Shown here one piece after another: positions 20,919 through 24,149 of a stretch of DNA of 53,371 nucleotides. Each line of letters opens with the position of its first letter. Within the stretch, counting starts at the first letter, position 1. The notes below the pieces were generated by a model. It ran no database searches. It saw only the letters and a program-made list of their open reading frames with translations, and was not told the DNA's origin. The DNA lies in assembly GCA_028692875.1 (NCBI GenBank), contig JAQUWL010000016.1:1-53371 (forward strand), given 5' to 3'. Origin of the DNA: Sulfurospirillaceae bacterium (lineage in GTDB: Bacteria; Campylobacterota; Campylobacteria; Campylobacterales; Sulfurospirillaceae). The translations under genes and the position numbers were made by a program.

Positions 20919-20959
20919 GGTTGAAAGGGCTTTTTATGGGCTTTTTCAACCCTTTTTTT
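20919..20959 (+). terminator. Intrinsic terminator of purL
   Basis: GGTTGAAAGGGC (20919-20930) can pair fully, using two G-U pairs, with GCTTTTTCAACC (20940-20951) across a nine-base loop. Seven Ts follow at 20953-20959. This is a classical rho-independent terminator. A TACATGTA copy (20910-20917) lies between the purL stop and the stem. Confidence 0.85.
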
Positions 20960-21013: not shown

Positions 21014-23764
21014 ATGCAAAACCTGTACGATTCAAGTGTGGCAATAAAATGCAATACTGATTTGGAGTTGAGGGTTTATACCTCTAGGCTTTTGGGCATG
21101 GATGCTGATTTGGTTTTGCACGGTGGTGGCAATACCTCTGTAAAAACGAATGAAAACAATCAAGATGTTCTGTATGTAAAAGGTAGCGGATGGGATTTGG
21201 CAACGATTAAGCCCCAAGGCTTCTCATCGCTAAGGCTAGACGCACTCCAAAAAGCTGTCGAGATAGAGTCTTTAAGCGATACACAAATGGTTGAATTGCA
21301 AAAAGAGGCAATGATAAACAAGAGTGCACCTTCGCCCTCCGTTGAGGCAATACTTCATGCGATTATTCCTTATAAATTTGTTGACCATACGCATGCTGAT
21401 GCTGTTGTAACTATCTCGAACTCAATACACGGCGAAAAATATATAGAAGAGATATATAAAGATTTTCTAATAGTTCCTTATGTTATGCCTGGATTTATTT
21501 TGGCAAAAAAAGTTTACGAGCTAACAAGAGGGATGGATTGGTCTACATGTAAGGGTATTATTTTGCATCATCACGGAATATTTACCTTTGCCAATAATGC
21601 AGAGGAGTCTTATGACAAAATGATTGATGCTGTAACTTTGGCAGAAAAGTTTTTGGATTTGAAAGCACCTTTACATGTAGAGAATAAAGTGGCTAAGGGC
21701 GAATTTGATTTTGATGTGCTTAAAGATTTGATTTGTGCCGAAAAAGGTCATGAGGTTTTTGTAAAGGTAAATACCTCCAAACTTGCCAAAACATATGCAT
21801 CGCAAACAAACATCAAAACACTTTGTAAGAAAGGGGTTTTGACGCCAGAGCATATTTTGCGAACCAAGCGAGAACCGCTTTTTATAGATAGCTATAATCT
21901 TCAAGAGATTGTTGATATTTATAAAAAGGAATATATGAGTTATTTTAAGACATTTTCCAAAAATAGTGAGATATGTCTAAATCCATCTCCAAATTGGGCT
22001 GTTATAAAGGGCTACGGAACGGTTAGCTTTGGAAAAGATGAAAAAGAGGCTTCTATCATCGAGGATATAAATAATCATACAATGAGAGCAGTTTTGAGAG
22101 CCGAGTTGTTAGGTGGTTTTAAAAGCATAGGACTTAAAGATAGTTTTGCGATGGAATATTGGGAGTTGGAGCAGGCAAAACTCTCAAAAGAGAAAGCACA
22201 GCAGAACAAAGAGCGTTATATTATGAGTATCGACGCAGGTACCGGCAGCGTTAGAGCTGTTATCTTCAATCTTGATGGCGTGTTGATATCGGTTGGGCAG
22301 GAGGAGTGGTCTCATTATGAACAAGAGGGTATTGCCAACTCTATGAATTTTGACTGCAAACAAAATTGGCCTATTATTTTGCGATGTATCACAACGGCTT
22401 TAAAAAAAGCAAATATTCACGGCGAACAGATAATAGCCGTAAGTGCTGCTAGTATGCGCGAAGGAATAGTGCTTTATGATAAGGATTTAAATGAGATTTT
22501 TGCCGTAGCCAATGTAGACGCCAGAGCCGAGCAGGAAGTGGTAAAACTTAAAGAGGTTGTTGGGCTTGAGGAGAAATACTATGAAAAATCTGGACAAACT
22601 TTTGCACTCGGGGCATTGCCTAGACTTCTTTGGGTTAAAAGACATCAACCACTTATTTATGAGAAGATTTTTAAGATATCAATGTTGAGTGATTGGATAC
22701 TCTTTAAACTAAGCGGAGTTATTGCTAGTGAGCCTAGTAATGCTGGCACGTCAGGCATATTTTCCTTGCATAAAAGGGAGTGGTTTCCAAAAATGGCTAG
22801 TAAGATAGGCATAAAGGATACTATTTTTCCGCCTTGTTATGAAAGTGGAACAGTTCTAGGAAAGGTTACATGTAGAGATTCAAAGCTAGGGCGAGAGACG
22901 CTTGTTGTTGTTGGTGGAGGTGATGTCCAGATGGCAAGTTTAGGGTTGGGTTTGGTTGATATTGGAGATACCGCCATTATAGGTGGTACATTTTGGCAAC
23001 AAGTGAGAAATATCCCCTCGACTACAATACCGCCTCTAGATATGAGTATGCGTATCAATCCACATGTTATTTCTGGTCAGTCACAAGCAGAGGGGATTAC
23101 ATTTTTTAGTGGACTTGTGATGCGATGGTTTAGAGACGTTTTTTGCGAATCAGAAAAAGAGCTGGCAAAAGAGAGAAAAATAGATCCTTATACTATTTTA
23201 GAAGAGATGGCATCAACTGTTCCAGCCGGTTCAAATGGCGTTTTGCCTATTTTTTCGGATAGTATGAAATACTACAAGTGGTATCACGCTTCGCCGAGTT
23301 TTCTAAATCTCTCCATTGACCCAAAAGTTTGCAATAAAAGCGTTATGTTCAGAAGTTTGCAAGAAAACGCCTGTATTGTGTCGTGGATAAATTTGAAAAA
23401 TATAGAAAAGTTTACGGACACTAAAACAAAAGAGATTGTTTTTGCAGGAGGAGCCAGCAAGGGAGCTTTGTGGTGTCAAATTCTTGCTGATGTGACAGGT
23501 CTTAAGGTAAAAGTTCCTGTTATTAAAGAGGCAACCTCCCTAGGGGTGGCGATTGTTGCGGGATTTGGAGCTGGTGCATATCGTGATATTTCAATAATGA
23601 CAAAAAAATTGGTAAAATGGGAAAAAACGTATCTTCCTAATCCTCAAAATCATGAAATCTATAAAGATGTAAGAAAAAGATGGCAAAAGGCTTATGAGGC
23701 ACAACTGAAACTTGTGGATGAAGGTGTTACGACCTCGATGTGGAAATCCCCTGGAATGTCATAA
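21014..23764 (+). CDS. Fusion: class II aldolase plus LsrK-like FGGY kinase
   Basis: This 916-residue protein joins two enzymes. Residues 1 to about 395 are a class II aldolase of the RhaD/YuxG type, with zinc ligands in VDHTHADAVV and ILHHHGIFTFA and a catalytic Glu in APSPSVEAIL. From about residue 405 an FGGY kinase begins (MSIDAGTGSVRAVIFNLDG) that closely follows E. coli autoinducer-2 kinase LsrK as I recall it: SMREGIVLYD, NVDARAEQEV, SNAGTSGIFSL, VVGGGDVQMASLG, GGTFWQQV, MRWFRDVFC and FAGGASKGALW. Such a pair could phosphorylate a small ketose and split it to a triose phosphate and an aldehyde. No Lsr transporter or LsrG/F is nearby. Four TACATGTA copies would be expected by none; three are present (21544, 21672, 22867). 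Substrate is unknown. Confidence 0.88.
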   Translation: MQNLYDSSVAIKCNTDLELRVYTSRLLGMDADLVLHGGGNTSVKTNENNQDVLYVKGSGWDLATIKPQGFSSLRLDALQKAVEIESLSDTQMVELQKEAMINKSAPSPSVEAILHAIIPYKFVDHTHADAVVTISNSIHGEKYIEEIYKDFLIVPYVMPGFILAKKVYELTRGMDWSTCKGIILHHHGIFTFANNAEESYDKMIDAVTLAEKFLDLKAPLHVENKVAKGEFDFDVLKDLICAEKGHEVFVKVNTSKLAKTYASQTNIKTLCKKGVLTPEHILRTKREPLFIDSYNLQEIVDIYKKEYMSYFKTFSKNSEICLNPSPNWAVIKGYGTVSFGKDEKEASIIEDINNHTMRAVLRAELLGGFKSIGLKDSFAMEYWELEQAKLSKEKAQQNKERYIMSIDAGTGSVRAVIFNLDGVLISVGQEEWSHYEQEGIANSMNFDCKQNWPIILRCITTALKKANIHGEQIIAVSAASMREGIVLYDKDLNEIFAVANVDARAEQEVVKLKEVVGLEEKYYEKSGQTFALGALPRLLWVKRHQPLIYEKIFKISMLSDWILFKLSGVIASEPSNAGTSGIFSLHKREWFPKMASKIGIKDTIFPPCYESGTVLGKVTCRDSKLGRETLVVVGGGDVQMASLGLGLVDIGDTAIIGGTFWQQVRNIPSTTIPPLDMSMRINPHVISGQSQAEGITFFSGLVMRWFRDVFCESEKELAKERKIDPYTILEEMASTVPAGSNGVLPIFSDSMKYYKWYHASPSFLNLSIDPKVCNKSVMFRSLQENACIVSWINLKNIEKFTDTKTKEIVFAGGASKGALWCQILADVTGLKVKVPVIKEATSLGVAIVAGFGAGAYRDISIMTKKLVKWEKTYLPNPQNHEIYKDVRKRWQKAYEAQLKLVDEGVTTSMWKSPGMS

Positions 23765-23777
23765 AAAAAGGAAAAGA

Positions 23778-24149
23778 ATGTATTTGACAAATGAAAAAGA
23801 GCATAATTATCGTTTTGAAATGTATGGACCAAAATATCTTACAAATGGTCCAAGGATTGATTTTGGTATCGTTGTAATTACGCCCAATGAAGCACATCCT
23901 TGCCATAAGCATGTTAAGCAAGAAGAGTCGTTTTTTGTCTTAGAGGGAGAGTGTGTAGTCTATGTTGATGGCAAAAGAGTACTTATTCAAAAAGGTGATT
24001 ATTTGCGATGCGAACCAGGCGAATCACACCTGTTTAGAAATGAAAGCGATAAGGATTTTAAAGCGGTATTTGTAAAAGCACCTTTTTTTGAGGAGAAGGA
24101 CTCGGTTTACATACAGTGGCAACCAGGAGAAGAGTTTTCTGATGTCTGA
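23778..24149 (+). CDS. Small single-domain cupin
   Basis: The 123-residue protein is one cupin barrel with both metal-binding motifs intact: HPCHKHVKQEESFFVLEGE (motif 1, two His and a Glu) and GDYLRCEPGESHLFRN (motif 2, third His). Such cupins isomerise, epimerise or oxidise small metabolites, or act as sensors. The ATG at 23778 follows the aldolase-kinase stop by 13 bases with AAAAGGA upstream; a longer frame runs into that gene and lacks similarity. Co-location suggests it acts on the same substrate as the fusion, for example as a sugar or sugar-phosphate isomerase. The reaction is not known. Confidence 0.85.
   Translation: MYLTNEKEHNYRFEMYGPKYLTNGPRIDFGIVVITPNEAHPCHKHVKQEESFFVLEGECVVYVDGKRVLIQKGDYLRCEPGESHLFRNESDKDFKAVFVKAPFFEEKDSVYIQWQPGEEFSDV

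Follow-up and report, generated by a model that had tools for sequence, protein, structure and literature searches.

What a class II aldolase joined to a kinase resembling the autoinducer-2 (AI-2) kinase LsrK, and followed by a cupin, might do in a member of the Campylobacterota is the question raised by the locus analyzed here. The window, meaning the whole stretch of DNA that was analyzed (53,371 nt), is an entire contig of a 1.94 Mb genome that is 99.9% complete. To our knowledge, LuxS is very common, and an intracellular route for consuming its product is known only in Lsr-type bacteria. The reading that we consider probable is that the locus encodes the intracellular half of a catabolic pathway for AI-2 (DPD), with a class II metal aldolase in place of LsrF.

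The module consists of two same-strand genes lying between purL and a dacA-like gene (Table 1). It is a new transcription unit that starts downstream of a terminator-like hairpin, which was identified by consensus match only, and no regulator or transporter gene adjoins it. The first gene is a single open frame of 916 codons encoding both aldolase and kinase. The separate genes of relatives show how this frame departs from the usual arrangement: their aldolase terminates in AKLKK followed by the stop, their kinase begins M-K-Y-L-x-A-I-DAGTGS, and where the two genes adjoin on one strand (64 pairs) the aldolase stops a few codons past AKL and the kinase starts just ahead of YLxAIDAGTGS. In the fused frame the aldolase stop is absent and the start Met of the kinase is now Glu. 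A sequencing error or one-base artefact was rejected as the origin of the fusion, given the loss of both the stop and the start codon and the presence of a linker. The evolutionary step leading to it is short, because some relatives carry aldolase and kinase in the same frame with one stop separating them. No fused aldolase-kinase was found at any of 80 named loci of relatives, nor in the 102 other genomes with matches among 399 genomes of the order (103 matches including this genome); the long open frames returned by the order-wide scan contained stops where checked. The fusion, for which a search in relatives had been suggested by an earlier sequence-only reading of the locus, is thus confined to this genome so far, whereas the module itself is not. 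A structure model of the fusion predicted the aldolase half well and the kinase half poorly (pLDDT 72.7, only 14 sequences), and is therefore uninformative on how the two domains are placed relative to each other; its best structural matches were three LsrK structures.

Table 1. Features of the aldolase-kinase-cupin locus and of comparable cupin genes in other records.
Feature	Position	Strand	Remarks
Terminator-like hairpin, end of upstream purL	20919..20951	+	Consensus match only
Fused ORF: class II aldolase, linker, LsrK-type kinase	21014..23764	+	916 aa plus stop
Class II (metal) aldolase half	21014..22183	+	Residues 1-390
Linker SKEKAQQNKE	22184..22213	+	Residues 391-400; aldolase stop and kinase start Met of relatives both missing
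LsrK-type autoinducer-2 kinase half	22214..23761	+	Residues 401-916
Cupin_2 protein, 123 aa	23778..24149	+	Pfam match, metal-site pattern
Conserved cupins downstream of lsrK (Salmonella, Deinococcus)	L198 10574-10924; L200 10563-10961		

Judged by its sequence, the kinase half is a true LsrK, and phosphorylation of DPD is inferred from this identity. Residues 402-644 and 688-851 match Pfam FGGY_N and FGGY_C, respectively, and residues 399-914 match the NCBIfam model for autoinducer-2 kinase (NF008187) with 801 bits, against an equivalog cut-off of 528 and scores of 1001 and 863 for the LsrK proteins of E. coli and S. meliloti. The closest solved relative is E. coli LsrK (5ya0), matched over its full length with E = 1e-180, which bears out the earlier description of this half as LsrK-like throughout; sequence identity to E. 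coli LsrK is 53%, versus 17-24% to XylB, FucK, RhaB, GlpK and AraB. In a phylogenetic tree, for which clustering with xylulokinases had been named as the refuting outcome, the kinase half falls on the LsrK side together with enteric and alphaproteobacterial LsrK (support 92/90), away from xylulokinase and fuculokinase. In E. coli LsrK, ten residues are proposed to line the DPD site (T21, S91, M92, R93, D253, V254, F276, Q278, E308 and I310; PMC8016206); every one of them is identical in the kinase half, and the set is not kept in any other FGGY family tested. On the grounds of low identity and of DPD-site residues that none of them keeps, assignment of the kinase to XylB, FucK, RhaB, GlpK or AraB was rejected. 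A search of plasmids (E <= 1e-40) returned 79 records, all below 60% identity and covering at least 80% of the kinase length; the matches listed were 44-53% identical to the kinase, and the annotated gene beneath the match, where present, was lsrK.

The genes that accompany the kinase were surveyed in a sample of 298 genomes of the class, requiring scores above the cut-off for the kinase, >340 bits for the aldolase and >100 bits for an ABM protein. Kinase and aldolase were observed in exactly the same 35 genomes, without exception, and the ABM protein in 33 of these 35 and in none of the remaining 263, the two genomes of the sample in which it is missing at this threshold being the present one and G238. 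The corresponding Fisher probabilities (p = 2e-46 for kinase with aldolase, p = 7e-42 for kinase with ABM) are too small, because relatedness is not taken into account. The usual gene order in relatives is ABM, aldolase and LsrK, sometimes followed by the cupin, with gene ends that often overlap, and LsrG was the sole NCBIfam match of the relatives' ABM protein. The absence of LsrG asserted by the sequence-only reading therefore holds for this genome, which has no ABM gene, but not for its relatives, which carry an LsrG-like one. The lack of an Lsr transporter and of LsrF, asserted alongside it, proved right for this genome: no orthologue of E. coli LsrF was detected in 40 kinase-bearing genomes including this one, six of which gave weak partial matches of 30%, and none of E. 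coli LsrB in 40 kinase-bearing genomes of the order, again including this one, apart from one 19% match.

A search for LuxS, also suggested beforehand, located it in this genome, outside the module, and in 35/35 kinase-bearing genomes of the class sample, versus 254/298 overall; in a wider set including fragmented genomes it was present in 75 of 80. Because LuxS occurs in 85% of the class, its association with the kinase is weak when based on presence alone (p = 0.004, relatedness ignored). Physical linkage was observed in one genus (g50), where luxS adjoins the module in all six genomes, divergent from the aldolase-ABM genes and with the kinase convergent. Among other neighbors, a gene recognized by eye as mqnC-like (CofH/MqnC-type radical SAM, futalosine pathway) often lies 3' of the kinase (L080, L083, L089, L106, L117, L129 and others). 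Two database records carry unexpected labels: a MAG assigned to Thiomicrospira cyclica (L175) encodes an aldolase, kinase and cupin of Campylobacterota type, reflecting either horizontal transfer or misbinning, and a MAG record labelled Helicobacter pylori PMSS1 (L126), probably wrongly, encodes an ABM protein and aldolase of environmental Campylobacterota type.

The same aldolase family was also found within lsr operons of other bacteria. Annotated lsrACDB operons have a class II aldolase as their last gene, right after lsrB, in Thalassospira marina, Ensifer canadensis, Sinorhizobium meliloti, Paracoccus aminophilus, Alloyangia pacifica and Roseateles sp. XES5, and in these six the divergent lsrR-lsrK-like unit has an ABM gene as its last gene, after lsrK. 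The same aldolase/ABM arrangement was found by HMM in Tritonibacter, and in Roseicitreum an aldolase-ABM pair lies beside a different transporter, near lsrK. The ABM proteins of four scored lsr operons matched E. coli LsrG with E = 1e-22 to 1e-31. In a plasmid search for LsrF, matches came from Salmonella, E. coli, Klebsiella, Enterobacter and a few others, and LsrF was absent from the records with an lsr-operon class II aldolase. For S. meliloti, AI-2 uptake and a response to AI-2 produced by other bacteria are reported (Pereira et al. 2008, cited in PMC2728841). A separate cluster in Sagittula sp. P11 (L195 3333-6947) has consecutive genes for a non-LsrK FGGY kinase, LsrF and a class II aldolase, accompanied by one for a G3P dehydrogenase. 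It thus combines the two types of aldolase, and its LsrF is 72% identical to that of E. coli.

In alphaproteobacteria the aldolase family and ABM form part of complete lsr operons that also encode LsrACDB and an LsrR-like regulator, which could be taken to mean that the module serves AI-2 interference or quorum sensing, foreign AI-2 being taken up and destroyed or phosphorylated AI-2 acting as an inducer; LsrK plus a set of enzymes consuming P-DPD is, moreover, the core of Lsr uptake and quenching. We nevertheless regard this explanation as unlikely, given that no LsrB orthologue was detected in the 40 kinase-bearing genomes of the order that were searched, that the module has no regulator or transporter next to it, and that nearly all genomes bearing it make their own DPD via LuxS. 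Since LuxS is present and LsrB is not, the more likely role is recycling or detoxification of DPD made by the cell itself, rather than uptake of a foreign signal. Where the sequence-only reading had left AI-2 quenching and salvage side by side, quenching consequently loses ground and recycling of the LuxS product is favored.

The aldolase half matches Pfam Aldolase_II (residues 21-211) and, over residues 1-397, the aldolase half of PRK08324-type aldolase/SDR proteins (NCBIfam). Its E111, H125, H127 and H187 align with E73, H92, H94 and H155 of FucA, the catalytic Glu and the metal-binding His triad, and the metal and catalytic residues are conserved across all long aldolases compared. The earlier description of an intact RhaD-type zinc aldolase is supported in this respect. 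The class II aldolase site is intact as far as residue conservation can tell; bond cleavage and its products are inferred, without biochemistry. Between Campylobacterota and alphaproteobacteria the aldolases share only 37-39% identity and fall into separate clades, so that recruitment in the two groups may represent two events, with reactions that differ in detail. In several LsrK-bearing Campylobacterota (L178-L183; G040, G169, G205, G225, G238 and G316) the sole aldolase of the family lies in a longer frame (~540-670 aa), apparently fused to an SDR domain and located away from lsrK; such a fusion may add a redox step, reduction or oxidation, that lies outside the scheme proposed below. A second Aldolase_II protein is encoded on the contig at 44977-45549 (-) (190 aa); it belongs to family PRK05834 ('hypothetical protein'), scoring 267 bits where the cut-off is 139, and is not MtnB by score.

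An aldolase of this class could alternatively act in salvage of 5-deoxy-pentoses of the DHAP-shunt type, in which the kinase would phosphorylate C1 of 5-deoxyribulose (or methylthioribulose) and the aldolase would release DHAP and an aldehyde, disposing of a radical-SAM by-product. A class II aldolase performs exactly such a cleavage in the 5-deoxyribose disposal pathway (PMC6079011), and the frequent position of mqnC, a radical SAM gene, just downstream of the relatives' kinase fits this function. The kinase of that pathway, DrdK, however, resembles MTR kinase and has two aldoses, 5-deoxyribose and MTR, as its specific substrates, being inactive on 5-deoxyribulose (PMC6079011), whereas the kinase encoded here is not MTR-kinase-like but an FGGY/LsrK protein with all DPD-site residues. 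Nor was an MtnA/DrdI-type isomerase seen in the clusters inspected, where the recurring partner is the LsrG-like ABM, and the linkage to luxS and lsr operons would be left unexplained, which makes this function quite unlikely. General catabolism of a rhamnulose- or fuculose-type sugar by an ordinary ketose kinase and ketose-1-phosphate aldolase, suggested by the membership of the aldolase half in the rhamnulose-1-phosphate aldolase/SDR protein family, is barely credible in the absence of any accompanying isomerase or sugar transporter and with a kinase that lacks the substrate residues of XylB, FucK, RhaB, GlpK and AraB. Among the substrates put forward by the sequence-only reading, namely DPD/AI-2, 5-deoxyribulose or another deoxy-ketose, DPD/AI-2 is therefore favored by the identity of the kinase, the presence of LuxS and the luxS/lsr linkage, and the others are less so.

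The cupin reported earlier next to the fusion is confirmed by a Pfam Cupin_2 match of 64.5 bits (threshold 27.2), its start being likely the ATG at 23778 rather than the TTG at 23712. Its metal-site pattern (H43, H45, E50, H84) is invariant in 15 homologues. Homologues were found directly after lsrK in Salmonella (46-47% identity; 47% over 105 residues) and in Deinococcus psychrotolerans (43% identity), and the conserved cupin next to lsrK is apparently an unnamed accessory of AI-2 metabolism. A fold search gave generic matches only, to phosphomannose isomerase-like and quercetinase-like cupins with TM of about 0.6-0.8. A role as a plain substitute for the missing LsrG-like protein was considered and is unsupported, since the two occur together in several relatives and, in Salmonella, the cupin gene accompanies a full lsr operon that includes LsrG. 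Its role is inferred only, and is perhaps to open or isomerize ring forms of DPD.

In the DPD catabolic pathway proposed here, LuxS, encoded elsewhere in the genome, would convert S-ribosylhomocysteine to DPD, which the LsrK half would then phosphorylate at C5. LsrK is known to phosphorylate DPD at this position and LsrG to isomerize P-DPD, after which LsrF, an enzyme of class I aldolase fold, transfers the acetyl group onto CoA with release of DHAP (PMC2728841, PMC8016206). Isomerization of P-DPD to 3-hydroxy-2,4-pentanedione-5-phosphate would be catalyzed in relatives by the LsrG-like ABM, and in this genome it might be spontaneous or be carried out by the cupin or by another enzyme. Class II aldolases of the FucA/DrdA type hold the DHAP part of their substrate on the metal and use a glutamate as base (PMC6079011). 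Because the LsrG-made isomer bears the CH2OP-CO-CHOH part that class II aldolases bind, the aldolase is inferred to cut the same carbon-carbon bond as LsrF: its metal would bind this part as FucA and RhaD bind a ketose-1-phosphate, and cleavage, with the metal-bound DHAP enediolate as leaving group, would free DHAP and a two-carbon acetyl unit. The latter might exit as acetate, as acetyl-CoA or, after reduction, as acetaldehyde, a redox step that the SDR-fused aldolases of some of these genomes would fit. The fusion would thereby place the first and the last step on one chain.

Several points count against this pathway, which has no enzyme data for the aldolase behind it: the lack of the ABM isomerase in this genome, the several genomes in which an SDR-fused aldolase is unlinked to the kinase, the low identity between Campylobacterota and alphaproteobacterial aldolases, and the weakness of the kinase/LuxS association when judged by presence alone. 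A more specific proposal, to which we would give slightly less than an even chance, is that the phosphorylated AI-2 isomer is the substrate of the class II aldolase, which would act on it as a metal-dependent carbon-carbon hydrolase or acetyl transferase. Under this proposal the enzyme evolved independently of LsrF, occurs widely among Campylobacterota and in the lsr operons of alphaproteobacteria, and is here fused to LsrK in one protein that starts and ends AI-2 breakdown. We know of no record of a carbon-carbon hydrolase or acetyl transferase reaction for the class II aldolase family. In the open-licence literature, no paper was found that connects a class II aldolase in an LsrF-like role with LsrK or AI-2; subscription papers were outside the search, and prior mention is not excluded. 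If it acts as proposed, the aldolase is a candidate for a missing step: it would be a metal-dependent stand-in for LsrF, to which it is not homologous. Its association with LsrK is perfect in the Campylobacterota sampled, and it would also explain lsr operons without LsrF, that of S. meliloti among them. These results point to an overlooked yet widespread route of AI-2 recycling without LsrF and suggest that DPD is recycled even in many bacteria that lack an AI-2 receptor; AI-2 levels in communities may therefore reflect metabolism, not signaling.

Compared with known systems, the module shares with the DrdA/DHAP shunt a class II aldolase that yields DHAP downstream of a kinase (PMC6079011), but that shunt uses another kinase family and another type of isomerase and has no LuxS or Lsr context. 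The RhaD-type bifunctional aldolase/SDR proteins (PRK08324, TIGR02632) have an N-terminal domain in common with the fused ORF over ~400 residues, the SDR domain being absent here and the kinase occupying its position. With E. coli LsrK (5ya0) the kinase shares whole-length homology and the DPD-site residues, yet it sits behind an aldolase and its counterparts of the HPr-contact residues E122, A155, M210 and A211 are K, K, K and I; control by the PTS via HPr is therefore unlikely. Relative to LsrG, a P-DPD isomerase of the ABM family, the Campylobacterota ABM copies reach only 30-34 bits where the LsrG cut-off is 135, and in relatives the ABM gene lies before that of the aldolase or after lsrK. 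The Lsr system as a whole differs in possessing the LsrACDB transporter, LsrR and LsrG, the last of which is lacking from the module in this genome. The pSymB lsr operon of S. meliloti has in common LsrK, the LsrG-like ABM class (present in relatives of this genome), the same aldolase family and the lack of LsrF, and is set apart by LsrACDB, a regulator and unfused genes, its aldolase being 38% identical to that of the fused ORF. LsrF itself (3-hydroxy-5-phosphonooxypentane-2,4-dione thiolase, PMC2728841) is presumed to occupy the pathway position that the aldolase has here and, if the proposal is right, cuts the same bond with release of DHAP, but with an unrelated fold and mechanism, a lysine Schiff-base barrel instead of a metal-dependent aldolase; the aldolase may work like LsrF but, being an Aldolase_II protein, is not an LsrF.
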